DNA of 24,939 bases from Saccoglossus kowalevskii (lineage: Eukaryota > Hemichordata > Enteropneusta > Harrimaniidae). The notes under the pieces are model-generated. The model was not told the DNA's origin, searched no databases, and saw only the letters and a program-made list of their open reading frames with translations. The translations under genes and the position numbers were made by a program. Numbering within the stretch: the stretch's first letter is position 1; the number at the start of each line of letters is the position of its first letter. The stretch lies in the NCBI RefSeq assembly GCF_000003605.2, contig NW_003134846.1, positions 15,439 to 40,377 on the forward strand, read 5' to 3'. Of this stretch, positions 132 to 24,939 are shown piece after piece.

Positions 132-1052
132 TTCTTATTCTAATGTCATATTTCTCAATTTATATGAAGTTATATCCAAATCTATCTGTCTGACTACCTG
201 TCTGTACTAAAAAATGTAACATTTATTTACTTTATTGGGGGTTATTGTGCGACATGTGTACATTCATACATATGGCATATTGACAGCAGATTGTGTGGCA
301 TGTTTAAGGATGCATATGACAGAGAATGTAGCATATATATGTAAGTAAGAAAACATGACCTGTATGCAGCGGAGTGCATGACATGTTGGTGGATGTGTGC
401 CAAAAAAGTGTGGGGCAGGTCCTAATTTTCAGTCAGGATTACCATTAAAACCACCATTTGGCAAATCATGTGCCAGTGATCAGTGTTTGGGTGAGTGGTC
501 AATGTTTTCAATAAACTAGCAAGTGAAAAACATGAATAATGAAAATATGGTCGGAATATACTGCATAGTCAGAAATTAAGCAATAACGATCAACACTTTC
601 AGATTGCTGTTTTGCAAGGACATCTATTTTGCAATGAAGACTTTAATCCGGGGTCTGATACTGTACTGTTCTGTTTTTACAGCAAGGTAAGGTGGGAATG
701 ATTTTAATAATATACTAGAGATATTTGTGTGCACAGATTGTTACTACACTGTAACATCTATATTGAAATGAAGAATTCAATCCCAGGTGTAAAACTGTAC
801 TATTTATGTAATGTTAGCTTGAACAACAATTTTGCCTACCGGGGTGGGAGTGTGGTCAGGTATTTCAAAATCTGATTACATTTTCTAATTTTTGTGAATT
901 TGTTTGTGATTTTCTACAGTATCTATGGAAAGCAAAAGTGCTGAACATATAAGACTACAGATTATTGGGGAAACAAATAAAATTAAAAGTTACAAAGCAC
1001 TGTCAAGCCCATTTGTTTCATTTGGCATTCTACAGTAGATATAAGATGTACT
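132..1052 (+). other. Upstream region with possible 5' UTR splice signals
   Basis: No coding sequence is recognised. Splice-like signals are present: a donor AAG/GTAAGG at 687, an acceptor TTTCTACAG ending at 919, and an acceptor CATTCTACAG ending at 1035, just before the start codon. A non-coding leader exon ending near 686 and joining at 919 or 1036 is plausible. No convincing core promoter is visible. Confidence 0.35.
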
Positions 1053-2784
1053 ATGTTTAGAGTGAATAATAACAACCTCTTACTTTTTTTCTTTGTCAGT
1101 TGTTTGACCAACCACTACTGTACGGGAGATCAGGGGTATGAACCACCAAATGTTCCAGGCATTCTATTTGTTTACGATTCATGGGAAACTGAACGATGTG
1201 GTCTGGATGGATTTCATGTAACTCTCGTCAAACATGTCGCAAATATATTATCATCGATGTACCATATTTACAGCACTGTACTTGAAGTGAGCAGAGAAAA
1301 ATGCAGAAAGGCAGAAGATGAGAATATTCATTTGATTGAGCCAGCAAAGAAAAAAGCAAATTATTGTCCAAGTAGAGAGTGGTTCTTTCTTCATGATAGT
1401 TACTTCCCTGTTTTGAAAAGTATTAATATAAAACATGTAGTTGGATATTCACCAAGAACTGACAATGCTGCATTCACCATTCAAAATGAGCTTTTTAATG
1501 ATGCAAGACTAATTTTAATTAACCATGTTTTGCCTGATGCATTTGAAATGAATGGAGAAATAGATGAATTGGTATACAAGGCTGCTGCAGCATTTATATC
1601 AATTGGACCCTTAATACATGAAGAAAACTATTTAAAATTGCAACTGCTAGGACTGGACGAAAAACCTCATGTAAAATTATATCCATTTCCATCAAAAATT
1701 TTCTTCAAAGAGAGTGTGGTTAAGGATATATTTAATGATAAAACAAAAAAAATTTATATTTCTACCTATGGACATTTTTTTCATCCTAATATTAAAGCTG
1801 TGAATGTATTAGGTGAAGTGGCAAACGTTTTTAAATCGTTGAAGCAGAGTCTTTCACTGAAGATTCTGTGCGTGCCAGATGAATTAGAGATTTTTGAGAC
1901 AATAAATAATTTTGTTAGTAGCTCGGCCTTGCCACTTAATGATGTAACAACATATAGTTCATGTTCTCTGAAACAAATCTTGAGAACTTTGCGAGCGAGC
2001 CATCTTTGTATAATCCCCAAAATCGACATTGAATACAGTTTTGTAGGCATAGAAGCTATAGCATTGGGAGTTCCTGTCTTGGTTGATGAACAATCACAAC
2101 TAGCAGCTTTTTTTGGAGAAGTGTTCAACAACACTTGGCAACATATTGACTTGTGGGAGTCTAAGATTGTGGAAAATACTTTCGAAAGTTGGGAAGAAAA
2201 AATTCGAAACAGCCTACAGTCTTTAAACATGTCTTGGCATAAATCAGCTGCTTTACGAGAAGAATTTAAAACAAGTTACCTTGTATCAAAAAGTTATAAA
2301 GAAGTCGTTGCATTGCTAAATCATACAACTATCAATGAGTGTCCAGAGTGTCCATGCAAATCATGTTTGCCATTAAAAGTACACTGTGTCTTCAATTCAA
2401 CTAATTCGCAAACAAATTCTAAATCAAGTACTCCAACAAATTTCAATCATTGGTTGTGGAAATGCACAGACATTATTACTCAATTAACAATAAACAACAA
2501 AGATTACCAAGAGGAATTGGAATGTGCTGTCCAAAACAAGTGTTCCGCTATTATCCTAGGATACAAGGAAGGGAGTCTTATAATTTACATTACATTCCCA
2601 AATCTCTTTAGCCTATATGTATTCCAGGGCATTGTAAATTCAGGAACACTGGCAAGAGAATTTGACAAGATTTTAATTTCTGAGAAAATGAGGTATGAGG
2701 CAGCTCTACTGAACATCCCCTTTAAGCTGGATTTATCATATGATGAAGAGCAGTTCAAGTTACTTGCCACGTACTTAATAAATC
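1053..2784 (+). CDS. Exon 1: signal peptide, GT-B glycosyltransferase-like domain, Cys-rich linker, TRADD-N-like region
   Basis: This exon encodes residues 1-577 plus one base of codon 578. The ATG is the first in frame after an in-frame TAA about 80 bases upstream, and it begins a good signal peptide (hydrophobic LLLFFFVSCL, likely cleavage near residue 24-25). The GT-B features are: an N-terminal strand and Gly loop (LFVYDSWETERCGLDGF, 38-54), INHVLPD at 156-162, FISIGP at 181-186, a central YISTYGHFFHPNIK stretch (235-248), and SFVGIEAIALGVPVLV at 329-344. Glu334 sits at the second position of the family's E-x7-E motif, but the first position is Ile326, with Glu327 shifted by one, so activity is doubtful. 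CPECPCKSC (430-438) starts a Cys-rich linker. The TRADD-N-like region has GSLIIYITF (507-515) and SGTLAREFDKILISEK (530-545). The donor is GTAAGT at 2785. Reading through it would add a short tail ending at 2837. It is odd that two domains share one uninterrupted exon while the rest is in small exons. Confidence 0.93.
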
Positions 2785-5700
2785 GTAAGTTTAAATTACC
2801 ATTTTTTTTTGCTATGCACACATGGAGGTACATGTGATGTTGTACAGATATATGTATGTAAATTGTGTCCCAATGATAAACCACTGGGTGGATTGGGATG
2901 CAATTTTGTAATTTGCATACTAATTTATTACTTTTTAGCTCCGCTGTTGACTTTGTCGAGCGGAGCTTATCGTATGAGTGATTGTCAGTCGTCGCCGTCG
3001 TCGTCGTCGTCCGTGTCAATGTTTTATATTTTTGACTTCTTCTTGAAAACTACAAGCCTGAATGCTTTGATACATGGTGTATATGTATCTTGCGTATACC
3101 TCTCTTAGGTTTGTTCATTTCATGTTGATATCTTCAATTCTCTAATTTTGGTGAGCATTTTTGTCATTTTTGGTAAAAAGTGATATTTTCGACTTCTTGT
3201 TAAAAACCGCAAGTCCAATTGCTTTGATACTACATATAAAGGTACTACATGTGGACCTCTCTCATATTTGTTCATTTCGTGATGATATCTTAAATTCTCT
3301 AATTTTGGTAAATATTTTTGTCATTTTTGGTAAAAAGTGATATTTTTGACTTCTTGTTAAATACTGCAAATGCAATTGCTTTGCTATTACATATATAGGT
3401 ACTACATGTGATCCTCTCAGATTTGTTCATTTTGTGATGATATCTTCAATTCTCTAATTTTGGTGAATATTTTTGTCATTTTTGGTGAAAAGTGATATCT
3501 TCGACTTCTTGTTAAAAACCGCAAGTCCAATTGCTTTAATATTATATATATAGGTACTACATGTGGACCTCTCTCAGATTTGTTTATTTTGTGATGATAT
3601 CTTCAATTCTCTAATTTTGGTGAATATTTTTGTAATTTTTGATAAAAAGTGATATTTTTGACTTCTTGTTAAAAACCAATAGTTCAATTGCTTTGATATT
3701 ACATGTATAGGTACTACATGTGGACTTCTCAGATTTGTTCATTTTGTGATGATATCTTCAATTCTCTAATTAATTTATTTTGGTGAATATTTTTGTAATT
3801 TTCGGTAAAAAGTGATATTTTCGACTTCTTGATGAAAACCGCAAGTCCAATTGCTTTGATATTACATATATAGGTACTACATGTGGTTCTAACTCGGATT
3901 TGTTCATTTCATGATGATATCTTCAATTCTTTAATTTTGATGTATATTTTTGTAATTTTTGGTAAAATTGATATTTTCCACTTCGTGTTAAAAACCACAA
4001 GTCTGATTGTTTTGATACTATACATATTGTTCATTTTCTAATGATATCCTCTGTTCTTTAATTGAAATGTGCATTGCTAACAGCCGAGCAATCTCAGCCG
4101 ATAGGCTGCTTGTTAAATTTCAAGATATGAATAGAAATGAAAACAATATGAAAATTGGATGATTTTGCAAAGTTTTGAGGAGTTTCACCATGTTCAACAC
4201 ACAGATTTAAATGTGAACACATATTCTTGTAGGCAAAAATGTTAATTTCATGAGGTTGATGTCATGATTTTTCGAATGGGATACTCGTAAGATGGAGAAC
4301 TCATGACACATTACTGCAATGCCTAATTATTCTTGTACTGATGTGGCCATGATGGCGCAATTACATGCGTTATGTAGCACACACGATCCAGAAAACATGA
4401 ATGCAAAATATTTGACCCAACCCAGAGTGAAACAAAAGCTATTCAAATTAAGGCAGAACAAAAATGAGCGCAAAATATTTTCAAGTAGATTTGACCTTAA
4501 CTGAGTGAACATGACTTTAAATTTAACTTTTGAAACATGTGAACACTAAATATAACAATTTAACATGGCCCAAAACAATTCATCTTTGTGGTATTGGGTG
4601 TATTGCAATACCTGGAGTAGTATAGTTTATGGATTGGCACTTGGTATGAATGAAATACGATAGTCTAGCTATGAGGTAGTGCAATGTGCCTTTACTAACA
4701 TAAGTTATAATCATTATTTATTACTAAGCTCATGTATTATAAGACGAATATTCACACAGAACTCCAAGACTTCTTTACCGAAAAACGATTTAACCCCACA
4801 AAAGTTATAATGCATGCATGCTAAGATTACATGTCCGATTATAGCATGCACGTTTTCGCATTATTGCATTTTATTGAGACAATCATTACTTTTTACATTG
4901 TGATTTATAGGAGACGATCATTATTTTTTACATTGTGATTTATAGGAGACGGTGGAAATAGCATTTTCAGCTACATAGATGATGATGTTGGAGATGATGA
5001 TAATGTGATAAATGATGATTACGAGGAAGATGGTATGACTTTGGAAGAGCTTAACAACTTAATTCTGAAGAAAAAAGTATGTAATAATGCATTTATTTAT
5101 GTGTATACACCCGTCCCATTGTGTGTGTGTGTTTGCAATCGTTGCGTGATGGCCCTTTGGGTTACCCCTTAGGCGAGGCCTTTTTCTTAGAGAATGCTAC
5201 CCTAGGGTGTTCCTTGCAGACCTGGGTATATTCTCTAATAGTTTCCATTTGGGGTTGTAATCTGTAATTAAGCAATAAATAAGTAATAAATGAAATTTCC
5301 ACAGATTTTCCACAGGTATGATTAGGTAAACAAACATGTTTCTACAACCTTATTAATCTCATTGAACTCAGGCAAAAAAAATATATATACTGGACTGATT
5401 TGAATGATACATTCCCTAAACATTGGACCCGACAGAAAATTATAATAACACATACTTGACTAGGTGAAAGTAATGCAAACAGCCAGCTCTTGATGTTGCA
5501 ATGCAGTCAACCCATGCATTATATCCAGCCATTATACAGCAAACCAATTCCCTCTGACATACATTTCCATGTGTCACTAACTGTTCCAGCAGATACAAGT
5601 ATGGTATAATTAAAAGCAACAAGTATTTTTTACTTGTCGGATATTGCATTTATGAACTTATGGATATTTGATATGTTCTTTGTACTAACTTTGCATTTCC

Positions 5701-8700
5701 CGTAAATGATTAAGACGACAAAAAAAAATTAACCAACATGGCCACCAGTCGACAATTTGACAGTCAACAAAATTTCAATAATTTGCATGCCTGAGAAATA
5801 ACAGTTGGTTAAATTTCAACTCGCAACCAAGTGTAAGCTTGTATGTTAGTGCATATGTACAAATCTATGCATTGTAAACACATAACTGAATTCTGGAAGG
5901 GCTAAATAGCTAGTTTTAATATGGCTGGTACTCTGTTATCTTGTAATCTGATAATGAAAGAAATGCATGTGAACATGTCAGATATACATGTCCACTTTGA
6001 ATGTGATCAATCCAGTGATGTGCGTGCTACAGACATGTGCTACAGACATATATGAATGCACAGAGGTTAATCCACAAGTCCCATTTTTCGTACAGGTACA
6101 AACAGTAAATCAAATGACATTACAAGGCTTGACATAGGATGGAATAAATCATTAGTCTAAAGACTAGCAAAATACAATCAGTAGTCCTTACACGTTCCAT
6201 CATAAAATAATTTAAATCTCACTATTAATTGTTTAAGTCACGGAAACAAAATTACCACTATTCAGTGATTTGAAAAATAAAATGGCGCATGAAAGTCCTA
6301 TTGTGTTTGTACCAAGTTTACACCAAATCCATTATTCCTCTCAATAAATGGACTCTGAGTTCGTTTAGAGGAAATAAAATGTATATTTATGTTTATATAT
6401 TAGTCTCCCATTTAGCCCAAGCTTGGCACACCTAGTTTTTACTTTTCACCATTAACAGCATTTTAACTCTTCTGTGATTTTTTTGGCTGGGCTGATTTTG
6501 TCCATACTTGGTAGGCAGGTCATATCGTCATTCTAGTTGGGTGGTAAAATCTAAAAAAAAAAGTCTGACCTACAATTTTTTAATGGCTTTGCACCAAATG
6601 TATTTCATCCTTCAATTCCGGGACTAAAACACCTTGGCTCATTCTATTTAGCTTGATATCTTTTTTCATTACCGAGAAATTTGACCTAAGTTGGGGTAAC
6701 TTTAACTCTTCCATGATTTTTTTGGCTAGGCTGATTTTGTTAATACTTGGCAGACAGGTCATACCATCACTCTAGTTGAGTGGTTATATTGGAAAAAAAT
6801 TCCTGATCCACTGTTGCCATGGCAACTGACAAATGTTTTTTTTTTTAAATACTTTCGCCCTAATGTAATACCTACTACAAGTCTTGTAATAGCAGTGTTC
6901 AAATGATCATGCTTTTTATTTTGGCTAAGTTGCCGACTGATGAGAGAACATGTTAGCTTCAGTTCTCGTCCTACCGGCTTGTCGGTGTATGTGTGTCTGT
7001 CTGTTCCACTGATGTATGTTAATGTGCTGATTTAGGTCTTAGTAAAAATCCATGCATATTAATTACCTAATTTGCACGATATTTAGCTAATTTAGCGGTT
7101 CCATGACTGTTCCACTGTTGTCTAAAAAGCTACCCATTTGATTTTGATGAAACTTAGTAAATAGATGATCAGGACTGATGCACAGATTTGATTAGTTTTT
7201 TGTAAAAACATGTGCATATTAATTACCTAATTCGCATAATGACTACTCAGTTTTTGGCTTTCCCGTGATATCTCAAGTACTAAACATCACATTTCAATGA
7301 AACTTGGTACATATATGTCCTAGGACAAAGTACAAACATGATAGTTTATTTTAGCCGAGCATTACATTTACCTAATTTACATAATTAATCAATTTTGCTG
7401 CTTTTTCTTTTTTTCAAATACCAATTACCCCGTTTCAATGACACTTGGTACATAGATGCTTTAGGGCAATGCAGAGACCTAATTAGTTTAGGTTGAAATT
7501 AGTGCATCTTAATTACCTAATTTTCATGATAAACCAATTTTCAACTTTAACGCTGATATCTCAAATACTAATTATTCAATTTCAATGAAACTTGATGCAT
7601 ATATGACCTGTGACATTGTGCAGACCTTATCAGTTGTTTTACTATGAAATCTGTGCATATTAATAACCTGATTTGCATAATTATTCAGCTTTCAGCCTTT
7701 CTATCAATACCACAAATACAAGTAAATTTGAATTCATTTTTTATGTGTCTTCAATACTCTCAGCACACTGGACTTCTTTCTAAGCTTTCTTTGATTATTT
7801 AATATGTTTCATATTTTTGCAAGGCATCTCATACTGAGAATGGAAATTACAATGGTGATTCTAGAGGTTAGTTAGTATCTACTATTACATTTTCCTCCTT
7901 TTAATATTTCAGTGTGTGTGGGTAAATAAGTGCCAACTCAAAATGTCTGTCCAAACACTGTCATGTATGTGGGCTAGAAGAGCATATCTGTTTTGTCAGT
8001 CAGTGTCATGTCAATATGGTTGGAAATGTGTGTGTGTCTTTGAATATTTAAAATAATTTTAAATAAATTTATGAAAAGAATTAAGAAATACTAGTGACTG
8101 CTGACAAGCAACAAAGTTTGGGGCATCTTACAAGCCACTCTGACACTGCATATCATACTCACATCAGCCTATTGTCTTATATTACTTTGCTTTTTATTCC
8201 GTCAGATCATTACAGTGAATTTGAGTATCATAATTTCATAATTGTCTTGTTGGTTGTACTCGCGAGTATATGTAAGTTGAAACAAATTAATGCATTGTTT
8301 ACAGTTTTGCTACATATACATAACTTCTAAATTATACATAATGTCTTCATTGGACTTTTTGGAGGGGGGTTCTGTTGAAATTTAGTGTTGCCTTTACTCA
8401 TAGTGCATTACTGATGCACATCATTCATAAAATATAATTGTGTGACTATTTCTTGTAATCAGATTCATATGTAGGTTTAATATTTGAATCCAGTCTGGTG
8501 ATACAATACAATCAAGCATGTTTACTCTTATTTAGGCATTCTTTGTATCTGAGGCCATGTGTTTTTTTTTTCAAAGGCAGAGACTTTGACATTTATATCT
8601 TGCTTTTCATTATTTTCAGTTATTGGATATTTCATTACACAAAGCATTACAAGACATAGCAGTAAGAAGTTTTTATTAGTTCCTGTTCAGATGGGGACTT

Positions 8701-11700
8701 GTGTTTTGATCTTTGTGTGTATGTGCATGTGCATCTTTCAAACTTAATGCATTTTGGCAGGGGTAATTATTCACTGGGTTATAATTTTGCTTATTTCACT
8801 GACTGGAAAATGGCTAAATTAAAACCCAGTGAATATGTAAAATTTAGCATAAAACAAATTATCTAAATGATAAAACCGTGAATTTAAAACCCACTGAATA
8901 TCCTGAAATTTAAACTCAGTGACAATTAGTCATTTTACAGTACATATGCATGTTCATATGTTTTGTGAGCTGATTCAAGATGGCCAAATGATGATCATTT
9001 TTATTAGCTCCGCTGCCGACTTAGTAGAGCATTGCTTATCATACGAGTGACTGTCCTCTGTCATTGTTGCCGTTGTTGTCCATGTCAACTTTTTACTTTT
9101 TCGACTTTTTCTTGAAAACTACAAGCTTGAATGCTTTGATACTTCTTGTGTATTTAGCTTGGGTAGACCTCTTTTAGATTTGTTCATTTCATGATGATAT
9201 CTTCAGATCTTCAATTTTGATGAATATTTTTCACATTTTTGATACAAATTGTTATTTGGAACTTTTTGAAAACTACTAGCTGGATTGCTTTTATACTTGG
9301 TATGTAGGTACTCAGTGATGACTTAAAATTTAAGCAAATTTAGGTCCCTAAAATCATTTAAAAAGTGATGATGAAATGATCGGCAGGTAGAGGACTGAAC
9401 CATATTTATCCATGAGGTGAATCATTACCTTCTAACATTTATATTTAGATATACACTTGTACCAAAAATCACACTTTGAAAATAATTAGATATTCACAAA
9501 TATTTGTTTAGTCTGCTCTTGCTTTGGGATATGTTGTGATTATATACATACATTCATACTCATAGTTTCTGTTATTTCAGCTGTTGCAGACACTGGGATG
9601 TTTGATGCCGTGAGAGGTTTCAACTATACCAAGTCATTCACTACAACTAGAAGCACAGACAGCCAAGCAATTGAGTATCTTAATCTTATGCTGGTTGGAT
9701 TGCCTTCAAAGTCATTCACTACAACAAGAAGCCCAGGACATATTGAATATCTCAATCTCATGCTGATTGGTAGATGCCCTTCACGGACTGAACGAAATCG
9801 TTTCAATTATATGATAAATCAGAAATCCTCAATGAAAAAAAAGGTAATATTCCAGCTAAATAAATAACCATAGACGAAACAGGATTGTCCATGGTTAGCT
9901 GTATATTTTGTATTGTAGGCTGTTGGGTATAGAGGACGAATATGTATGTATCAGTGGGTGTGTGTTTGCACCGTTCCTTTCAAAGTGTAATAAAATGTAG
10001 TTAGTGCAAAGATATTTCAAAGATAATTCACTCCTATGTAATGCCAATTTGCATTTAAAAAATCAGAAAACAACCAAATTTCAACATGCCTTACCCATTT
10101 CTTATTAGCAGTCAAAAACAGAAACTTATGGATCGAACTCTATCTGTGAATCCCAACCTGTATCTTTCACATGCCTGAGTTGATCGCATTTAAACTTCAC
10201 ACATACGTAATATGCACCTCTATTCAGTTCCTATTCTAATTCAATCATTTCTGCTACTCAAAGTGATGAGTGTATGATGATGGAAATTAGCTACCAACTG
10301 AAAATCCTTATTGTAATAAATGACTTCTACTATGACATTATTTGGTCTACAGTGCTGATATTGATAGTGCACACGCATTGTCAGATTTTGTGACGACATC
10401 TTCAATCTTTTTAGATGACAGAATGGAGCTAGTCAAATAGGTGATTGTTTTTTTGTTCATAGTCTGTCAACAATTTTTTTAACTTCTTCTTGAGAAATGC
10501 GTGTGTATGTACCTCTGGACCTCTGTAAGATTTACTCATTTCTTGATGATATCTTCAAATCTCTATTTGTGGAAAAATATTTTGGTAAATTTTAGTGAAA
10601 AAATGCTATTTTTGACTTTCCTTGAAAACTCAATTGCTTTGATACTTAGTATGTATGTACTTTGGGTGAATATTAGAATTCTTCTTGAACACTACCCACC
10701 CAGTTGCTTTGATATTTTAGTTGTACATTTTTTTGTTGAACAATTTGTTCTCGACAAGGCTACAACAATGTTCTTGTAGGACAGCAGAGCTATTTTGTGG
10801 CTCACATTGCCTTTTGACTTTATTCTTGAAAACTACCAGCTAAATTGCTTAGAATTTTGGTATTACATGTATGTACCTTAAGTGGGCTGCTGTCAGATTT
10901 GTTCATTTCATGACAATACATGTATAATTTATTTTCTCTTTTTTGGCAAATATCCTTTGATTGTTAATTTTGTAAAAAATTATATTTTCGAAATTTTTTT
11001 GTATCACTGCTAAATATTTTTGTGAACAATTTTATGAAGTTGACATTTTCTCAACAGCAAAACCAAACCACCTTCGGTGGCTGTGTGTTAGTTAACTTGA
11101 CTACCACATTGTCTTATCGGAGAGCTAGTTTGATCGTCTGGTCACTTGTTTCATGATGTTATCTTCAATTATTTATTTTTAGCAAATATATTTTCGACAT
11201 TTTTGTTAAAATTTTTGTTTGTTTTTTTCGACTTTTTGAAAAATACAAGCCTTATTACTTTGATACTTGGTATGGTTTGTAACCAGTTGATAACAATATT
11301 GAAATTACCATAGCAACAACTTTATAAACTATCATTGTGATTGGGAACATTGTAATAAAAATAACCATGGCAAATCACTAATATATCATCAATATAGAAC
11401 ATTTTCAACTTTGTTTGTGGAAGACAGAAACATGTGATCACTTGTGGTTTCTTGGCCTTAGTCTTGAGATGCATTTTTTGAGATGGATGTCTATGTGGCT
11501 GATATTTTCAGACCATAATTCAATTTAATTGGGTATATAGAGCTTATATAAAGAAACATTGTAATTCTATACCTGAGAAGTTTGTGGAAATCCACTAAAT
11601 CTAAATCTGAAAATTTATTAGACTAAAAACCATGAATGTCAATTCAAAGGTATTTTCTGTTTTATAAACTTCAGATTATTTTCACATTGTACATCTCAAA

Positions 11701-14700
11701 TAGGATTTGAATATTAGTTGTTCAGTTTTATGTTTAAAAGGCTAATTATTTGCTAATTAATGTCTCCAATAGTCTCAGCACATTGAAGTTTTTTTTTAAT
11801 TTCAGTTTATTATGAATTCTGTATTTTCAGGTATTTTTTCCCTGTTTGAACAAAGTTGGAAATGGAGACTTACCAGTATAATTCATACTTTGATCCTTCT
11901 AATTGTCTGAATTCGTATTTCAGAACTGCAAGAATCAAATCTGTTCATTCTTTGCCATACAGTGACCATACAGTGTACATTCAGAGACATTTTACCTCGT
12001 CACATGATCAGTGATTTGTATATCGTATTTGATTGCATATATTATGCATGTACCTGCATACAACAATTCAATTTGTCAACAGATAAAAATCAACAGACTT
12101 GCAGCCATCATGTTGTTTGGGCATATTACTTTAACTAAACAAAACTTCTTTTAACTCCAATAAGGACTTTGTCATAAACAATGAGTGAAAATTGAGAAGT
12201 GTGAAATACAGAAAGGACATACATTACTTCATTTGCTCTATCACCACTGATAGTGGTGCGATGAACGTAAATAAAAAGTAAATTACATGTATCAAGTCGT
12301 ATTTCAGCATGTGTGCATCTACTAGTCTAATAGAGCATATATGGTGTATATATATTCTAGGTCTCTATATGGTACATATGTACATATATATTTACTAATA
12401 TAAAGTCATTTTTATTTTTTAATTGTATTTTGTTCTAAACATAATTAAAGGAAAAAGAAACTGAACTGAAGCGCACACAGAAGAAATGTGATGATCAGAC
12501 AACAGAACTGACTAAAGATAAGACGAATCATGATAAGGAAGTACAAGCCCTTGATCAACAAATTTCAATCCTACAAGATATAATCAAACAGAAGAATATT
12601 CACCTTAAGGAATTGGAAAAAAAAATACAGGACTATACACAACAGCACGAAAAGCAGCTGGAAGAAAAGGTAAACAATCCAACAATTTAAAATTTACTGT
12701 CACTGTTTATGTCGTTCGCATGCAATTACAATGCAGCAAGGCTGCAGAGCAGGTCAATTATTTAGCCAAAACACCCATTGGTATTCAATATTTGTATCAC
12801 CTTTTGTGTGGGTTCTTAAAATTACACAATTTGTGTATCACAGAGTTAATTTAGTCTGATGTGCACCAATACAGTTCAATACTATTACATGTATAAATAA
12901 ATAAATGGAGACAAGAATTCACACCAGTCATAAATAAATGAAGACAAGATTTCACACCAGTTAATCTTACACATAAAACAAGACGGTAGGCTGGTAGGCG
13001 ATCTGCTCCGCTACGCTCAAAAAGCAAGCAACATGTTTTTGGCTATTGTCACGGTAGGCATGTATGTAAATGTGTTGAGATGGGCGTAGTGCGAGTGGTT
13101 AGTGCTAGTAGCACTAATCCAAAAAAGTACTAGATCTAGTGGTAAAAATGGCACTAGATCTAGCGCAAAAATGGCACTAGATCTAGTGCTAAAATGTGCA
13201 CAGTGCGAGTGGCATTGTTATCGCATTGTTGATATCTTCAACTATCTAATTTTGGTGAATATTTTTGTCATTTTTGGTAAAAAGTGATATTTTCGACTTC
13301 TTGTTAAAAAACGCAAGTCCAATTGCTTTGATACTTCATATATAGGTACTACAAGTGGACCTCTCTCAGATTTGTTGATTTTGTAATGATATCTTTAATT
13401 CTCTAATTTTGGTGAATATTTTTGTCATTTTTGGTAAAAAGTGATATTTTCGACTTCTTGGTAAAAACTGCAAGTCCGATTGCTTTAATATTACATATAT
13501 AGGTACTACATGTGGACCTCTCTCAGATTTGTTCATTTTGTGATGATATCTTCAATTCTCTAATGTTGGTGAATATTTTTGTCATTTTTGGTAAAAAGTG
13601 ATATTTTCGACTTCTTGTTAAAAACTGCAAGTCCGATTGCTTTGATATTATATATATAGGTACTACATGTGGACCTCTCTCAGATTTGTTCATTTTGTGA
13701 TGATATCTTCAATTCTCTAATTTTGGTGAATATTTTTGTCATTTTTGGTAAAAAGTGATATTTTCGATTTCTTGTTGAAAACTGCAAGTCCAATTGCTTT
13801 GATACTACATATATAGGTACTACATGTGAACCTCTCTCAGATTTGTTCATTTCGTGATGATATCTTCAATTCTCTAATTTTGGTGAATATTTTTGTCATT
13901 TTTGGTAGAAAGTGATATTTTCGACTTCTTGTTGAAAACTGTAAGTCCGATTGCTTTGATACTATACATATTGTTCATTTTCGAATGATGTCTTCAGTTC
14001 TTTAATTGAAATGTGCATTGCTAACAGCGGAGCTATCTCAGCCAATAGGCTGCTTGTTGGCGAATAATTTCGGTAAAAATGCTATTTTTCACTTGTATCA
14101 GGTGTCATATGGAATCCATGCATAAATTTGCATAAAAAAGTGGAAGACAACCATTTGATTTCCTTCTCTGTATTTAGTAAGTGTAATACCTAGTTCAGTA
14201 TTGCTCCATTAGTAGTGAAGTGAAATTTGTAAAAGACATGTCTGTCTATCAAGTCATGATTCAGCATATGTGCATCTACTAGTCTAATTAAGCACATATG
14301 GAGTATATATTTTCCAGGATCTCTATATGGTGATAATAATAATCTTTATTGTTATCGTATCATCGATGGGACTTTGATTATAAATACAATTTAGGTATAA
14401 CAATGAAAAAATTAAATGAAACTACAAGAGTAAACAGTTACATCTGTGACTTTACTAATACAAAGTCATTTTTATTTTTTAAATTTATTTTGTTTTTAAC
14501 ATATTTAAAGGAAACAGCAATACAAACAATCACTGAAGAACTGAAGCGCACACAGAAGACATGTGATGATCGGATAACAGTACTGATTAAAGCTAAGGGG
14601 AGTCAAGATGAGAAAGTACAAGCCCTTTATCAACAAATTTCAATCCAACAAGATACAATCAAACAGAAGGATAATCATCTTAAGGACTTGGAAGAAAAAA

Positions 14701-15668
14701 TACAGCAACTATTACTGGAGGAAAAGGTAAACAATGCAACAATGTAAAACAAGGCTGCAGGGCAGGTCAAATATTTAGCCTAAACACCCATTAATATTCA
14801 ATGTTTTTATCTCCTTGTGTGTGGGTTCTTAACCAGTTTAAAATTACACAATTGGAGCCAAAATTACTATCAGACAGGTTACAGTTGAAGACTGTGGCCA
14901 CATGTGATTCCTGGTCAATCAGAATTGTATGGTTGCGAGAGAATCTGCTTCCCAGGGTAAGAAGCGCATGGCCATGGCATGAGGGTGTTGTGCCCCTGCT
15001 CCCTGATCCCTGATCCCTAATAACCCACAGTCTTTTGCACATTACGCCGGAGTACATTGTTTGTTCTCACAGCCCAATCATGGTATCAAATCATAGCATT
15101 CACAGAATCCAGACTGTAAAATGTTGTTACTTGCTTAGTATTTGAACCAAATCGTAGCATTGGCAGAATACTGACTGTAAAATGTTGTTACTTGCTTTGA
15201 ATTTGAACTCTCCAGACTGTAAATTATAGTATTATGTATTTTAGCATTTTATATCATTAACGCACATATTGTAGTTGCATCCTCCACTGTTTTCTACTGC
15301 CCTCAGTGTCAGTTCTGATAGTTGCAGCTTCCACATCTTCTATCTCCCATAACTTACATCCAACCTACATCTTCTGCCGTTCACTCTCATATTAATATGC
15401 TAACGCTAATATTTATTAGTTAGTACTTATTTCTTGATTTTTCAGTCTTGTTTTATATTGAGTTTTTCAGTCTCTCTGTACTTTATTATAACTTTTTCTG
15501 CAGTGGCAGTCAGGCACTACTAACAATCTAATTAGTGGGGCTTGGGTTGAGACTGGTCCAAACTATTCAGATAGTACTTCACAGTTTTCAGCTATGTTAG
15601 GACTGTTATATATGGTCCACCCCAGCACCTTTTTTTTCCAAATAAATACTTTTTTCCTTTATCTGTAG
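1053..15668 (+). CDS. Predicted type I membrane protein: GT-B glycosyltransferase-like ectodomain, TRADD-N-like region, TM helix, ITIM-like repeats, coiled coils (9-exon model)
   Basis: Coding join: 1053-2784, 4946-5076, 7824-7866, 8206-8271, 8620-8661, 9581-9843, 12451-12669, 14511-14726, 15504-15668, giving 958 residues. Every junction uses GT donors and AG acceptors, and phases match throughout (1,0,1,1,1,0,0,0). Layout seen in the translation: signal peptide about 1-24; GT-B fold about 35-415 with the GIEAIALGVPVLV signature at 332-344; Cys-rich linker 430-445; TRADD-N-like region about 465-575; acidic segment 588-608; transmembrane helix about 646-663; two tail repeats 689-739; coiled coils 760-904; tail 905-958. 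Four N-x-S/T sequons (N359, N392, N423, N448) and basic residues just after the helix favour an outside N-terminus and a cytosolic tail. Related GT4-type domains occur in marine invertebrate proteins fused to signalling domains (established knowledge, from memory). A receptor or sensor role is inference; no substrate can be named. The exon chain is strong up to exon 8; the terminal exon is weaker. Confidence 0.85.
2932..4114 (+). repeat. Complete central-tandem-repeat mobile element, about 1.18 kb
   Basis: The 5' end is TTTTTAG plus a hairpin: AGCTCCGCT (2937-2945) pairs with AGCGGAGCT (2959-2967). A short CGTCGT-rich tract follows. The core holds monomers starting with GTGATAT at 3180, 3337, 3492, 3649 and 3812 (spacing 157, 155, 157, 163). 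The 3' end carries AGCCGATAGGCT, which can form a small hairpin, and closes CTGCTTGTT. No protein is encoded, so it is non-autonomous. The layout resembles bivalve pearl elements and HINE/helentron elements by architecture only. Confidence 0.85.
4115..4875. other. Intron 1 remainder, no feature recognised
   Basis: AT-rich intronic sequence. Open frames near 4319-4512 overlap on both strands, have no splice context and resemble no family. A TGCATGCATGCTA / TAGCATGCA near-inverted pair lies at about 4811-4850. Confidence 0.5.
4876..4945 (+). repeat. 35-bp tandem duplication carrying the exon 2 splice acceptor
   Basis: Two nearly identical 35-bp units (4876-4910 and 4911-4945) start GAGAC, contain TTTACATTGTGATT and end TATAG, and exon 2 again begins GAGAC. 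The acceptor is therefore present at 4910 and 4945. Use of the first would read the second unit and hit TAG at 4943-4945. Confidence 0.9.
4946..5076 (+). CDS. Exon 2: acidic linker
   Basis: Enters in phase 1, leaves in phase 0, and encodes residues 578-621. The content is strongly acidic (SYIDDDVGDDDNVINDDYEE), partly from a GAT-rich tract, and ends in LEELNNLILKKK before a GTATGT donor. It sits between the TRADD-N-like region and the transmembrane helix, so in the predicted topology it is juxtamembrane on the outer side. The acceptor lies at the end of a 35-bp tandem duplication and therefore exists in two copies. Only the downstream copy keeps the frame open. Confidence 0.85.
5148..5318 (+). 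repeat. Interspersed repeat, direct copy
   Basis: It contains CCCCTTAGGCGAGGCCTTTT and TGTAATCTGTAATTAAG and ends near an AATAAATGAAATTT tail. It is a reverse-complement match to 22131-22290. No gene function is evident. The rest of intron 2 up to about 6430 shows nothing further that I recognise. Confidence 0.8.
6440..6840 (+). repeat. Two tandem units of about 240 bp
   Basis: The block TTTAACTCTTC..TGATTTTTTTGGCT.GGCTGATTTTGT..ATACTTGG.AG.CAGGTCAT occurs at about 6462 and 6702, with the same downstream order (CTCTAGTTG.GTGG or near). The second unit ends with the palindrome GTTGCCATGGCAAC at 6813-6826. Confidence 0.75.
6912..7720 (+). repeat. Central-repeat element with ~150-bp monomers
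   Basis: A lead region (TTTTTATTTTGGCT..., then a GTGTGTCTGTCTGTTCC tract) is followed by about five diverged monomers. Each is marked by GCAT.TTAATTACCTAATTTGCATAAT (at about 7054, 7214, 7359, 7504, 7654) and by TTTCAATGAAACTTGGTACAT. Spacing is 145-160 bp. It is in intron 2 just upstream of microexon 3. Confidence 0.75.
7824..7866 (+). CDS. Exon 3: 43-nt microexon
   Basis: Acceptor TTTTTGCAAG, donor GAG/GTTAGT, phase 0 in and phase 1 out, encoding ASHTENGNYNGDSR (622-635) and the first base of Asp636. Exon 2 ends in phase 0 and exon 4 must be entered in phase 1, so a connector of this phase is required. This is the only convincing one seen in between. It has no recognisable domain. Confidence 0.7.
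8206..8271 (+). CDS. Exon 4: first half of the transmembrane segment
   Basis: Acceptor TTTTTATTCCGTCAG, donor GTAAGT, phase 1 to phase 1, encoding residues 636-657. After HYSEFEYHN comes FIIVLLVVLASI, the hydrophobic core of the only internal membrane helix. Because the exon is symmetrical, skipping it keeps the reading frame and removes most of the helix, which would give a soluble form. Whether that happens is unknown. Confidence 0.88.
8620..8661 (+). CDS. Exon 5: second half of the transmembrane segment and stop-transfer
   Basis: Acceptor TTTTCATTATTTTCAG, donor GTAAGA, phase 1 to phase 1, 42 nt. It contributes FIGYFITQSITRHS (658-671), which extends the helix and adds Arg669 and His670 after it. 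The basic flank, against an acidic upstream side, fits a cytosolic C-terminus. Like exon 4 it is symmetrical. Confidence 0.88.
8762..8936. mobile_element. Small inverted-repeat (MITE-like) element in intron 5
   Basis: TATTCACTGGGTT (8768-8780) is an exact inverted copy of AACCCAGTGAATA (8823-8835). Two further related AAACYCA-TGA blocks follow, and the outer ends (GGTAATTATTCACTGGGTT versus the complement of AACTCAGTGACAATTAGTC) are also related. Target duplications are not clear, so the exact limits are tentative. Confidence 0.5.
9001..9320 (+). repeat. 5' fragment of a central-repeat element, diverged
   Basis: It starts TTATTAGCTCCGCTGCCGACTTAGTAGAGC, a decayed form of the 5' hairpin at 2932 and 24630, with the same order of sequence afterwards (TTTTTCGAC, GAAAACTACAAGC, GCTTTGATACTT, GATTTGTTCATTTC). 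It fades by about 9320. Confidence 0.8.
9581..9843 (+). CDS. Exon 6: cytoplasmic tail with two ITIM-like repeats
   Basis: Acceptor CTGTTATTTCAG, donor AAG/GTAATA, phase 1 to phase 0, residues 672-759. Two tandem copies of a repeat, K689-S714 and K715-S739, each read KSFTTTRS, then IEYLNLML, then a Pro-Ser end. I-E-Y-L-N-L fits the ITIM pattern I/V/L-x-Y-x-x-L/I/V, and Y-L-N fits the YxN core bound by Grb2-type SH2 domains. Both are general short motifs, so function is inference, but both copies are intact and lie on the predicted cytosolic side of the helix. The exon ends in a basic stretch (SSMKKK) before the coiled coil. Confidence 0.9.
9631..9783 (+). repeat. Coding tandem repeat (78 bp + 75 bp)
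   Basis: Copies at 9631-9708 and 9709-9783 both begin AAGTCATTCACTACAAC and end CCTTCA. They differ by one codon in length and by several substitutions. The Tyr codon context (ATT GA- TAT CT- AAT CT-) is kept in both, which is consistent with, but does not prove, constraint on the encoded motif. Confidence 0.9.
9844..10375. other. Intron 6, 5' part, no feature recognised
   Basis: AT-rich intron sequence after the exon 6 donor. I see no coding, RNA or clear repeat signal here. Confidence 0.4.
10376..11290 (+). repeat. Old, diverged central-repeat element remnants
   Basis: Recurrent blocks match the 157-bp monomer family at low identity: GATTT.TCATTTC.TGATGATATCTTCAA, TTTTTGACTT.CTTGAAAACT and TTGCTTTGATACTT. 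A degenerate AGCAGAGCTATTTTGTGGCT at about 10783 resembles the 3' terminal block. The open frame at 10501-10779 lies wholly in this repeat and is not a gene. Confidence 0.65.
11291..12285. other. Intron 6, 3' part, no gene recognised
   Basis: AT-rich sequence. A perfect short hairpin CACCACT-GAT-AGTGGTG lies at 12242-12258. Nothing else is supported. Confidence 0.4.
12286..12832 (+). repeat. Segmental duplication copy A (exon 7 with flanking intron)
   Basis: The copy includes upstream intron (GTGCATCTACTAGTCTAAT, CTCTATATGGT, AAAGTCATTTTTATTTTTT), exon 7, and downstream intron (GTAAACAAT.CAACAAT, CAAGGCTGCAG.GCAGGTCAA, GTGTGGGTTCTTAA). All blocks recur in order at 14236-14853, so a whole genomic segment was duplicated, not just coding sequence. 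Confidence 0.9.
12451..12669 (+). CDS. Exon 7: coiled-coil exon, copy A
   Basis: Acceptor ATAATTAAAG, donor GTAAAC, phase 0 to 0, 73 codons (760-832). The peptide is highly charged, rich in K/E/Q and without Pro, with heptad-like hydrophobic spacing (EVQALDQQISILQDIIKQKN, then LKELEKKIQ). This is a cytosolic coiled coil in the predicted topology, suited to oligomerisation. It is the partner of exon 8 in a tandem exon duplication. Confidence 0.9.
12892..12964 (+). repeat. 33-bp tandem duplication
   Basis: ATAAATAAATG.AGACAAGA-TTCACACCAGT occurs twice in a row in intron 7. It has no known role. Confidence 0.75.
13099..13190. repeat. Cluster of palindromes
   Basis: TTAGTGCTA (13099-13107) and TAGCACTAA (13109-13117) form perfect arms around a single base. 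Three units with ACTAGATCTAG follow, starting at 13129, 13153 and 13176 (spacing 24 and 23). The last contains the perfect 16-bp palindrome GCACTAGATCTAGTGC (13174-13189). The cluster directly precedes the 157-bp array. Confidence 0.85.
13224..14058 (+). repeat. 157-bp monomer array with intact 3' end, lacking the 5' hairpin
   Basis: Monomers start with GTGATATTTTCG at 13284, 13441, 13598, 13755 and 13912, exactly 157 bp apart each time. The array then passes into the family's 3' end (AACAGCGGAGCTATCTCAGCC..GGCTGCTTGTT). The 5' hairpin and CGT tract are missing. High similarity between monomers suggests recent expansion or homogenisation. Confidence 0.9.
14332..14450. mobile_element. Short retroelement-like insertion in copy B
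   Basis: GATAATAATAATCTTTATTG followed by about 100 bases sits exactly where copy A continues directly to TTTACTAATA. (TAA)n-CTTTATTG is a common reversed 3' end of LINE/SINE-type elements in marine invertebrates, so this may be a short reverse-oriented fragment. The class is inferred. Confidence 0.5.
14511..14726 (+). CDS. Exon 8: coiled-coil exon, copy B
   Basis: Acceptor CATATTTAAAG, donor GTAAAC, phase 0 to 0, 72 codons (833-904). It is clearly homologous to exon 7: ELKRTQK.CDD, KVQAL.QQISI and IKQK..HLK are shared. The open frame runs upstream through the intron to 14349, but that part is inserted repeat, not exon. Being symmetrical, exons 7 and 8 could be used together or singly. Confidence 0.9.
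15088..15207 (+). repeat. 61-bp tandem duplication in intron 8
   Basis: AAATC.TAGCATT..CAGAAT, then ACTGTAAAATGTTGTTACTTGCTT, is present twice at 61-bp spacing. Confidence 0.85.
15504..15668 (+). CDS. Exon 9: candidate terminal exon
   Basis: A strong acceptor (ATAACTTTTTCTGCAG) is followed by 54 open codons in the required phase 0, beginning WQSGTTNNLISGAW and ending at TAG 15666-15668. No domain is recognised. One caution: an AATAAA lies inside the frame at 15641, only about 20 bases before the stop. Further AATAAA signals at 15983 and 16002 would be better placed. A different downstream last exon remains possible. Confidence 0.5.
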   Translation, partial: WQSGTTNNLISGAWVETGPNYSDSTSQFSAMLGLLYMVHPSTFFFQINTFFLYL

Positions 15669-18355: not shown

Positions 18356-18855
18356 TTAATAGTCATAATTGTTTTTTCAAAACTCCAGATATAATTTTAT
18401 GTAATTGTAAACAGTTAACAATATTAACTAATATATTTTTGGCAATATATCCCATTTTAATTATCTAAATTTGTTTAACTGTATACAGTAAATCTTTATT
18501 TTAAAAATACAACTAAAATATGTTAATTAGTTCATCCTTGACTTTGGTAGAACATGTTTAAAATAGTACAGTACAATAGTACAATTTCTTTCTGGCGGGT
18601 ATAAATATATGAAGTAATATAAATTATTTTTTCGTACTAAAAAAACTCAAATATCTTTTTAATTAAATCTTAACAGCCAATGTGTTTTTTTGCAATTGCA
18701 GAGTCGGAATTTTTTTCTCGGAAAGCAAAGCCACTGGAACTGCATGTATTAAAAAAACATACCAGTACTATTCGCTGCGTGTCTGACAATTGTCTAAAGT
18801 TTCACCGGTCCTCTTTTTTTTCACTTTGAGAAGTGCTGTCAACCAAAGCATAAAT
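18356..18855. other. AT-rich intergenic stretch
   Basis: Very AT-rich, with many short A/T runs. No coding or repeat signal is recognised. Confidence 0.4.
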
Positions 18856-19065
18856 ATGTGTTTCTCTGTACATAAAATTTCACACGATTTGTTAATATTA
18901 ATGTATGATAATAAAAACTTGATACTATTTTTCTGGATTGTTGTACTTTATTTGTATCATTGTCATATGAGAAGTACTCTTGTCCTTATTAGAGATATTG
19001 GAACTAATCCAGGGCCACAAACTAGTTTATCCAACACTGACTCTTCTACATATTTGCAGATCTGA
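18856..19065 (+). pseudogene. LINE-like N-terminal remnant with a 2A-like motif
   Basis: The 69-codon frame contains a hydrophobic stretch (LILFFWIVVLYLY) followed by RDIGTNPGP (18991-19017). This is close to the 2A ribosome-skipping consensus D-x-E-x-N-P-G-P, with Gly in place of the Glu. Hydrophobic N-termini followed by 2A-like motifs are known at the start of non-LTR retrotransposon ORFs in marine invertebrates. The frame stops at 19065 and no endonuclease or reverse transcriptase follows. A short unrelated peptide is the alternative. Confidence 0.45.
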
Positions 19066-22470: not shown

Positions 22471-23587
22471 AGTCCCCGTTCGGACGAAGTCCGAAAACTG
22501 CGACTTATAATTCGGTCTCCGTGCGTCCGTCCGCCCGTGCGTCCGTCCGCCTGTGCTTTGTCAGTTTTCATTCAAATTTAGTACATAGATCATACATGTT
22601 AGGATACATGTCCCCGACCGTCCGTGAGTTCTTGAGTCTGTTGGTCCGACCGTCCGTCTGTCCGTGCGTCAGTCTGTCCAACGTCATATTTCAGAATCCT
22701 TTGGACCGAATCCGTTCATTATATGCATGTGCCTAGTACTTTATGTGGGACATATGCACATGCAGTGGTTTAGCGATTCAATTCAAAATGGCCGACTGGC
22801 AGCCATCTTGTTTTTTGAAAATGTTGTATTTTGGACATGCTTTGTCAGTTTTCATTCAAACTTGGTACATAGATTATACATGTTAGGATACATGTCCATG
22901 ATGATTTATTTCACAATTGGATAAAAAAATGGCCGACTGACAGCCATCTTGTTTTTTGAAAATGTCGTATTTTGGACCTGCTTTGTCAGTTTTCATTCAA
23001 ATTTAGTACATAGATCATACATGTTAGGATACATGTCCCCGACCGTCCGTGAGTTCCTGAGTCTGTCAGTCCGACCGTCCGTCTGTCCGTGCGTCAGTCT
23101 GTCCAACGTCATATTTCAGAATCCTGTGGACTGATTCCGTTGATTTTTTGCATGTGCCTAGTACCTTATGTGGGACATATGCACATGGACGTGCTCTGTC
23201 AGTTTTCATTCAAATTTGGCACATACATGTACTTTATACATGTTAGGATGCATGTCCATGACAATTTGTTTCAAAATCTGGTCAAGGATGGCCGATTGAC
23301 AGCCATCTGACTTTTTCGCCTTACTACTATATTTCAACAATTTATGTACCATTTTCATTCGTATTTAGCACATACATCATACATATCAGTGTGTTTCATA
23401 ATCAGATCAAAGATGGCCGAATAACAGCTGTTTTTATTTTGGCCATACTACTCTGACACGAAACACGTGTTTTGATGTAAATAAACAATCTGTTGTATAC
23501 GCCACTTGGAACTCAAGTTTCAAGGACGCACTCGCGACAACCCCTCCGCTTCAATATGACGAGCACAAAAAGAATTTAACGGGGACT
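22471..23587 (+). mobile_element. 1117-bp repeat element with 10-bp terminal inverted repeats
   Basis: The ends AGTCCCCGTT (22471-22480) and AACGGGGACT (23578-23587) are exact inverted copies. Next to the left end is the hairpin TTCGGAC-GAA-GTCCGAA (22479-22495), then a CGTCCGTCCG tract. Inside, CTTTGTCAGTTTTCATTCAAA blocks recur near 22555, 22840, 22981 and 23194, and a ~210-bp unit (22555-22762) is nearly identical to 22981-23189. AAAATGGCCGACTG.CAGCCATC recurs as well. The open frames within it are repeat translations, not genes. Confidence 0.75.
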
Positions 23588-24629: not shown

Positions 24630-24939
24630 TTTTTAGCTCCGCTGTCGACTTTGTCGAGCGGAGCTTATCATATAAGTGATTGTCCGTCGTCGTCGTCCGT
24701 CGTCCGTGTCAATGTTTTACTTTTTCGACTTCTTCTTGAAAACTACAAGCCTGAATGATTTGATACTTGGTGTATATGTACCTTGGGTAGACCTCTCTTA
24801 GATTTGTTCATGTTGATATCTTCAATTCTCTAATTTTGGTGAACATTTTTGTCATTTTTGGTAAAAAGGGATATTTTCGACTTCTTGTTAAAAACCGCAA
24901 GTGCAATTGTTTTGATATTACATATATAGGTACTACATG
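24630..24939 (+). repeat. 5' part of a central-repeat element, cut by the window end
   Basis: TTTTTAG and the perfect hairpin AGCTCCGCT-GT-CGAC-TTT-GTCG-AGCGGAGCT (24635-24665) are followed by a CGTCGTCGTCC tract and the first monomer. It matches 2932-3250 closely. Confidence 0.9.

Follow-up and report, generated by a model that had tools for sequence, protein, structure and literature searches.

The question raised by this locus is whether the hemichordate Saccoglossus kowalevskii carries a cell-surface receptor whose ligand-binding head is a glycosyltransferase-like domain. We analysed the whole stretch of 24,939 nucleotides (the window), which is contig C2665:15439-40377 of a 572 Mb genome (G000); the contig just 5' of it is nearly all N (9439 of 9901 bases in locus L014). 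An earlier note, made from the letters of this DNA, had proposed nine phase-consistent exons that run from a signal peptide at M1053 through a glycosyltransferase-type domain, a Cys-rich linker, a TRADD-N-like region, an acidic segment and one TM helix to ITIM-like repeats and duplicated coiled coils. We asked which of these parts are present, whether relatives keep them in the same order, and on which side of the membrane they would lie.

Gene model

Every GT and AG in the window (1528 and 1200 respectively) was scored with approximate splice-site matrices. The resulting gene has ten exons, from 634 to 15668, and a product of 960 residues (Table 1). Nine exons do join in phase as the earlier note had it, but neither its exon count nor its start held.

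When the genome was searched with exon 2, 37 matches came back, one of them the window itself, and three of the others cover nearly the whole exon: C3898 (63% identity), C2978 (62%) and C3772:63266 (38%). We use these three as paralogues throughout.

The start at M1053 (MFRVNNNNLLLFFFVSC) was rejected. Its hydrophobic stretch is read from the polypyrimidine tract in front of exon 2, at the 3' splice site, and we discarded this start because the sequence best conserved with two paralogues begins at the AG before TTGTTTGACC and because the C2978 frame upstream of the acceptor differs (MITTSHHFFAS). A signal peptide is predicted all the same, at another position: it lies in an exon of its own upstream (exon 1). 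The donor of this exon (AAG/GTAAGG at 686/687) has the top score in the window, rank 1 of the 1528 GTs, and the exon read from the ATG at 634 ends in the phase needed by the exon-2 acceptor (1099/1100, ...cttactttttttctttgtcag/TTGTTTG), which ranks 10 of 1200 AGs. There is an acceptor immediately 5' of the same exon 2 in C3898 and C2978, and C2978 has an exon-1 homologue (MKNLIFGVILYCFVFTA) that lies 2.9 kb 5' of its exon 2 and agrees exactly with the window in donor score and phase.

How easily could such an exon arise by chance? Among 1000 Markov sequences of 1100 nt, 17 held an exon-1-like exon under a strict filter (donor at least 9, hydrophobicity at least 2.0) and 276 under a loose one. 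The DNA block around exon 1 is 82% identical between the window and C2978 over 213 nt, intron included, and since the adjoining intron is as conserved as the exon, conservation by itself is no proof that exon 1 is coding. We found exon 1 at two loci only, the window and C2978; C3898 has five loose candidates in 5 kb, none of them homologous, and the region upstream of C3772 is N. In the window and in C2978 alike, exon 1 is repeated in degenerate form about 135 bases further on (760-816 in the window; L045/L011 for C2978).

Further on, the exon-2 donor ranks 81 of 1528 GTs. The exon-3 acceptor is ambiguous, as a copy 35 bases upstream (4911) has an equal score and would shift the frame. The putative last exon, exon 10, found no support from the relatives.

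Table 1. Features of the proposed gene, in window coordinates.
Feature	Position	Strand	Basis and remarks
Exon 1	634..686	+	signal peptide MKTLIRGLILYCSVFTA; gene start as corrected
Exon 2	1100..2784 (1685 nt)	+	open frame: GT4-conflict domain, Cys linker, TRADD-N
GT4-conflict glycosyltransferase domain (GT-B), altered active site	1164..2279	+	PF20706, E 2.8e-27
Cys-rich linker CPECPCKSC...C	2340..2387	+	sequence; kept in both close paralogues
TRADD-N domain, predicted outside, GS turn EGSLIIYITF	2448..2783	+	hhalign profile match
Exon 3, acidic stalk DGGNSIFSYIDDDVGDDDN...LEELNNLILKKK	4946..5076	+	phase 1 to 0
Exon 4, juxtamembrane ASHTENGNYNGDSR	7824..7866	+	phase 0 to 1; similar exons in C3898, C2978
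Exon 5, first half of TM helix (DHYSEFEYHNFIIVLLVVLASI)	8206..8271	+	KD19 maximum; same-phase TM exons in C3898, C2978
Exon 6, second half of TM helix (FIGYFITQSITRHS)	8620..8661	+	phase 1 to 1; IAYFIWWRITRPRHS at same place in C3898
Exon 7, cytoplasmic tail, two copies of KSFTTTRS...IEYLNLML	9581..9843	+	homologous tail exons at other loci
IEYLNL motif, first copy	9670..9687	+	fits [ILVS]xYxx[ILV], also YxxPhi and pYxN
IEYLNL motif, second copy	9742..9759	+	fits [ILVS]xYxx[ILV], also YxxPhi and pYxN
Exon 8, coiled coil, first copy	12451..12669	+	frame open in phase 0; acceptor weak, at rank 964/1200
Exon 9, coiled coil, second copy	14511..14726	+	tandem duplicate of exon 8; weak acceptor, rank 564/1200
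Exon 10, putative last exon, 54 aa + stop	15504..15668	+	acceptor rank 62/1200; uncertain

The glycosyltransferase domain and its active site

The proposed GT-B domain is borne out by Pfam, which identifies it as GT4-conflict (PF20706) with 96.2 bits against a cut-off of 26. This cut-off is loose, as all 14 control genomes hold a match above it. NCBIfam gave three families, each under cut-off, two of them weak glycosyltransferases and the third unrelated, and neither PADLOC nor the viral contigs gave a match. Bacterial genome contigs searched against the canonical GT4 alignment (A2) gave 98 pattern matches, none of them confirmed. A plasmid search returned six rhizobial records, five annotated as glycosyltransferase, the best at E 6e-4 over 26% of the query.

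In a tree of GT4 domains (26 rows, L034 having been dropped by length) the window and the three paralogues form one clade with support 100/99. To look at the active site, we aligned the window with 26 other ORFs, 3 in this clade and 23 outside (27 loci were given and L020 fell out by ORF length). The catalytic and donor-site residues of GT4 enzymes are EX7E and GR...K. Outside the clade, the EX7E Glu pair (EPFG...E) is kept in 13 of the 23 ORFs, a count that takes in the near-copies L008 and L025 and to which L034, being without that region, could not contribute; 11 of these 13 also keep the donor-loop Arg and Lys.

Inside the clade the first-Glu, Arg and Lys columns are changed in all four members. 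The first-Glu column has I in the window, S in C3898 and C2978, and D in C3772:63266; the Arg column reads H, H, D and K in the same order, and the Lys column is a gap in the first three and Q in C3772:63266. The GG loop has become CG in all four, and NSG is replaced by QSQ or NSQ. All four retain the second Glu of EX7E, and the window, C3898 and C2978 have a Glu one column on from the first-Glu column, so a shifted EX6E is still possible. Judged from this alignment, the loss of the active site in the clade is not clear-cut. We believe that the window's domain is GT4-conflict by descent and that its transferase activity is doubtful. Since both the donor site and EX7E are altered, the clade probably binds sugar instead of transferring it; the altered residues favour binding over catalysis without proving it.

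Degeneration is not unique to this clade, and divergent rows (L012, L030 and L036, for example) are also without one or both Glu. The genome as a whole, counting the window, holds 36 PF20706 places; in many of them the active-site motifs are intact, and some lie in clusters (C343, C1496, C3803).

The Cys-rich linker and the TRADD-N domain

The Cys-rich linker that follows the GT4 domain was read correctly at the outset: it is CPECPCKSC in the window and CPECSCKSC in C3898 and C2978. The TRADD-N-like region after it is recognised by profile comparison. We built a family profile (A1) from the window, C3898, C2978, two C3772 loci and C4067 and compared it with hhalign to a profile (A3) of TRADD-like_N domains of the same genome, namely four of the six places found there with PF20694; we excluded C3686, and also C2347, which has a stop. 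The match had a probability of 89.9%, E 1.7e-6 and a score of 40.5. The best of 200 column shuffles scored 18.01, none reaching the real score, and the reversed control scored 14.3. All four A3 members match PF20694 (best E 4.8e-5). The profile searches named in the earlier note as a check have found both the GT4-conflict and the TRADD-N domain.

The PF20694 search of the genome gave six places, two of them over cut-off, and the window is not among the six. The window's own TRADD-N region had no Pfam TRADD match at E<=10. One of the six family members matched TRADD-like_N as a single sequence (E 0.057), and C3772:63266 in a longer cut matched PF20694 at E 0.042. PDB, searched with phmmer and hmmsearch, gave no TRADD match; the entries listed in one of these searches were Ika8, Ika4 and a leucine-rich repeat protein, and the score of Ika8 is a sum over repeats that individually fall short. 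Plasmids searched with the TRADD-N part gave no match. AlphaFold, run on the single sequence of the TRADD-N alone, reached a pLDDT of 41, a value uninformative as to an RRM-like fold.

The beta2-beta3 turn of TRADD-N domains is marked by a tiny-Ser (or Cys) motif, according to the accessible part of PMC8195603. Five of the six family members have it, as GS in the window, C3898, C2978 and C3772:206536 and as GC in C3772:63266; the turn in C4067 is AT, outside the motif. The TRADD-N is also the most conserved part by dN/dS, at 0.22 in both pairs with the window.

Paralogues and selection

The search for relatives with the same order, which had been suggested as a check, was successful within this genome, and the paralogues share the architecture exon by exon. 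GT4 is followed by TRADD-N in one open frame in exon 2 of the window and in all three paralogues, which also share an acidic exon and a TM exon (a candidate in C3772:63266). Exon 3 is 60% identical in C3898 and 67% in C2978, and 37% and 35% in the two C3772 loci.

C3898 has counterparts of exons 3 and 4, of the two TM exons and of the tail exon, where the motif reads LAYLNLM, and its exon order and phases are those of the window from exon 2 to exon 7. These downstream exons were picked among candidate exons with 2000 shuffles each as control; the shuffles that aligned as well numbered 0 for exon 3, 9 for exon 4, 8 for exon 5, 0 for exon 6 and 3 for exon 7. The C3898 tail is absent from the results of the genome-wide exon-7 search and was located by local search only.

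C2978 carries exons 1, 2, 3, 4, 5 and 7 one after another on the same strand of a single contig, and exon 6 was not found there. Its tail exon lies about 6 kb further on (67% identity, E 1.4e-26) with IEYLNPM and IEYLNLM, the first having Pro at +3. There is no acceptor AG at the window's position, and the next AG is nine bases on and in phase. Two of the three paralogues, C3898 and C2978, retain a YLNL-type tail. At C3772:63266 we found the acidic exon (37%) and the candidate TM exon ITTVALPVTVIVIVAFMSSLINSLIKRLNH, which has the same phases and is not alignable. A further locus, C3952, has a tail exon with IEYLNLM (E 7.4e-7 in the exon-7 genome search) followed by a coiled-coil exon, and is not among the GT4 matches of the genome. 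Given the exon-by-exon conservation in the paralogues, we consider the predicted order of signal peptide, GT4, TRADD-N, acidic stalk, TM and tyrosine motifs to be supported. A lineage-specific expansion of GT4-conflict domains in this genome is likely.

Between the window and C3898 or C2978, dN/dS was 0.40 and 0.46 for exon 2, 0.39 and 0.46 for the GT4 part, and 0.22 in both pairs for the TRADD-N. Between C3898 and C2978 it was 0.58, 0.69 and 0.38. By these ratios, the codons evolve under purifying selection.

Three other loci resemble parts of the gene. C4067 (L034) has an N-terminal GT4-conflict half in a frame starting MAENN, no signal peptide in that exon, and a TRADD-N-like exon; it is possibly a cytosolic relative in the same genome. 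C3421:87576-91680 (-) has a sub-cut-off TRADD-like_N match 2.8 kb downstream of a same-strand GT4-conflict match with five stops. C3772:206536 (-, L035/L047) has a TRADD-N-like domain and an acidic exon, and no GT4 match is listed beside it.

Predicted membrane topology and the tyrosine tail

A signal peptide and one TM helix are both predicted from the sequence. The acidic segment and the TM helix are in the sequence as claimed, with consistent phases, and the helix is the strongest hydrophobic stretch of the protein (KD19 maximum 2.82 at residues 648-666). The stalk has 4 K+R and 19 D+E and the tail 14 K+R and 6 D+E; an acidic stalk before a basic tail fits an N-out topology. N-glycosylation sequons are not enriched (4 observed vs 5.7 expected).

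Cysteines are present or absent in pairs among the four clade members: columns 25 and 51 in 4/4, 275 and 306 in 3/4, and 86 and 107 in the window only. In the 23 rows outside the clade, there is no Cys at columns 51, 86, 107, 275 or 306. This is the pattern that extracellular disulphides would give, but it is suggestive only, since C19 has no partner and the close paralogues have 15 cysteines.

The tail has two matches to [ILVS]xYxx[ILV] (P 0.008 vs shuffles); two more, at residues 9 and 328, lie elsewhere in the protein. Over four loci there are six copies of the tail motif, and Y-L-N and an I or L at -2 are found in all six, while Leu at +3 and the full pattern are found in five. When we compared the two tail repeats of the window over 18 aligned codons, leaving out 5 and 3 unalignable codons between, there were five synonymous changes and one conservative nonsynonymous change (Fisher p 0.002 on rounded sites). 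The ITIM-like repeats are present as IEYLNL, but ITIM is not their sole reading, as YLNL also fits the consensuses of the YxxPhi sorting signal and of pYxN.

The duplicated coiled coils were also seen rightly. Exons 8 and 9 come from a tandem genomic duplication that includes the flanking introns (window 12000-14850, 72-87% identity), and the coil exon that lies after the tail exon in C3952 is homologous to exon 8. Their core has 19 nonsynonymous vs 1 synonymous differences, with pN (0.14) above pS (0.03). This excess is not significant (p 0.13) and we do not claim diversifying selection on these exons.

Other features of the window

A short open frame at 18787-19065 contains LVLIRDIGTNPGP and has no Pfam match; we take LVLIRDIGTNPGP to resemble the 2A-like start of LINE proteins. 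AT-rich stretches containing ATGGCCGA are repeated at 22500-23430, 3000-4100, 13200-14100 and 24640-24939, those before 15600 having been recognised by eye. ARAGORN found no tRNA in the window, and no Rfam match there reached the gathering score.

A possible receptor and its alternatives

The reading that we prefer, at slightly short of an even chance, is that this locus codes for a single-pass membrane receptor of type I, with a GT-B ligand-binding head and a YLNL signalling tail. The old sugar cleft of the GT-B ectodomain would bind a ligand, most likely a microbial glycan, a glycoconjugate or a nucleotide-sugar, and the extracellular TRADD-N would act beside the membrane as a homotypic or partner-binding module. 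Ligand-driven clustering, aided by the cytoplasmic coiled coils, would lead a Src-type kinase to phosphorylate the YLNL tyrosines. Phospho-YLNL would then recruit SH2 proteins, of GRB2 type via Y-x-N or of SHP type via the ITIM fit, and this recruitment would adjust phagocytosis or the activation of an immune cell. A GT4-TRADD-N conflict module would in this way have moved outside and been wired into receptor-type signalling. Receptor function, ligand, tyrosine signalling and glycan sensing are all things that we infer from the sequence.

The same topology would serve an endocytic or phagocytic scavenger receptor, in which YLNL is a YxxPhi signal for AP-2 and which mainly internalises its ligand, with no SH2 signalling. 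YLNL does fit YxxPhi in five of the six tail copies, but this consensus requires neither the hydrophobic residue at -2 nor the Asn at +2, each found in 6/6, and the first tail copy of C2978 keeps YLN with Pro instead of Phi. In the sea cucumber, according to PMC13133943, phagocytosis is driven by a membrane NLR whose NACHT lies outside the cell. We consider a scavenger receptor unlikely here while giving it real weight. Somewhat further from what we expect is a cytosolic GT4-TRADD-N conflict protein, with exon 1 unused and the helix tethering to the membrane a protein whose GT4 and TRADD-N stay in the cell. PMC8195603 treats the GT4-TRADD-N proteins published so far among intracellular systems, and the MAENN frame of C4067, with its TRADD-N-like exon, has no signal peptide in that exon. 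This has to be set against a signal-peptide exon that has the window's best donor and a homologue in C2978, against the change from acidic before the TM to basic after it, and against the paired cysteines.

We think it improbable that the product is an ER- or Golgi-resident enzyme, that is, an active lumen-facing glycosyltransferase held by a C-terminal TM helix. The GT4 fold and a luminal topology would suit it, as would the second EX7E Glu (4/4) and the Glu one column from the first (3/4, with Asp in the column itself in the remaining member), but the Arg and Lys columns and the CG loop described above do not, nor does the conserved tyrosine tail. Golgi glycosyltransferases are, in addition, usually type II. 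Very improbable, in our view, is a pseudogene, or two neighbouring genes taken as one. The weak acceptors of exons 8 and 9, the unsupported exon 10, the N-filled gaps in the paralogues and the C2978 tail exon without an AG at the window's place could be explained in this way, whereas purifying selection, the shared exon order and phases of C3898 (exons 2 to 7) and the run of exons on one strand of C2978 could not easily be.

If the locus is indeed a receptor of the kind that we prefer, it may belong to a new animal class, although we put this forward more tentatively than the receptor itself: a secreted, membrane-anchored GT4-TRADD-N protein with a pseudo-glycosyltransferase head that binds glycan or nucleotide-sugar, an extracellular TRADD-N interaction module and a tandem (I/L)xYLNL readout. 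Were this true, conflict-system modules shared with bacteria could turn inside-out into surface receptors, an enzyme fold would have been reused as a recognition head, and TRADD-N, known as a cytosolic adaptor, would work outside the cell. The GT4-TRADD-N ectodomain and the YLNL tail are concrete constructs with which to test what conflict-type GT4 domains bind.

Comparison with known systems

In single-pass immune receptors of the ITIM/GRB2 type, the one TM helix is followed by a cytoplasmic tail that carries motifs of the form hydrophobic-x-Y-x-x-hydrophobic. The protein predicted from the window is like them in having tyrosine motifs in the tail after one TM, and differs in an ectodomain that is neither Ig nor lectin.

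With the TM proteins of Crassostrea virginica that have a TRADD-N of the NCOA6 clade, it shares a single TM helix, a TRADD-N and membership of an expanded invertebrate family; those proteins, as the accessible part of PMC8195603 describes them, have the TRADD-N inside the cell with a DED and a Cys-rich domain outside, whereas here the TRADD-N is predicted outside with the GT4. AjNLR-new of the sea cucumber also has a normally cytosolic immune module, in that case NACHT, reported outside on a membrane receptor, and it combines NACHT with Ig domains and is without GT4 or TRADD-N in the accessible text of PMC13133943.

The closest known proteins are the GT4-TRADD-N fusions of cnidarians, cephalochordates and hemichordates (Kaur et al. 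2021, eLife, PMC8195603), in an article whose accessible part also describes GT4 expansions; the claim of the earlier note that GT4 domains are fused to intracellular modules in marine invertebrates agrees with it. As in those proteins, a conflict-type GT4 is directly followed by TRADD-N in an animal and there are lineage-specific copies. They have LRRs after the TRADD-N, and their GT4 is discussed as an effector domain. In the window the GT4 active site is altered, and no LRR family is among the Pfam matches listed for exons 2-10 (25 of 28 families for the coil piece). Our literature search found no GT4-TRADD-N version that is secreted-side (with a signal peptide), membrane-anchored and equipped with tyrosine motifs. 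The GT4-TRADD-N fusion is already published, and the form predicted here, on the secreted side, anchored in the membrane and with tyrosine motifs, looks new: it differs from the fusions of PMC8195603, as far as the accessible text describes them, by its signal peptide, acidic stalk, TM helix, YLNL tail and coiled coils.
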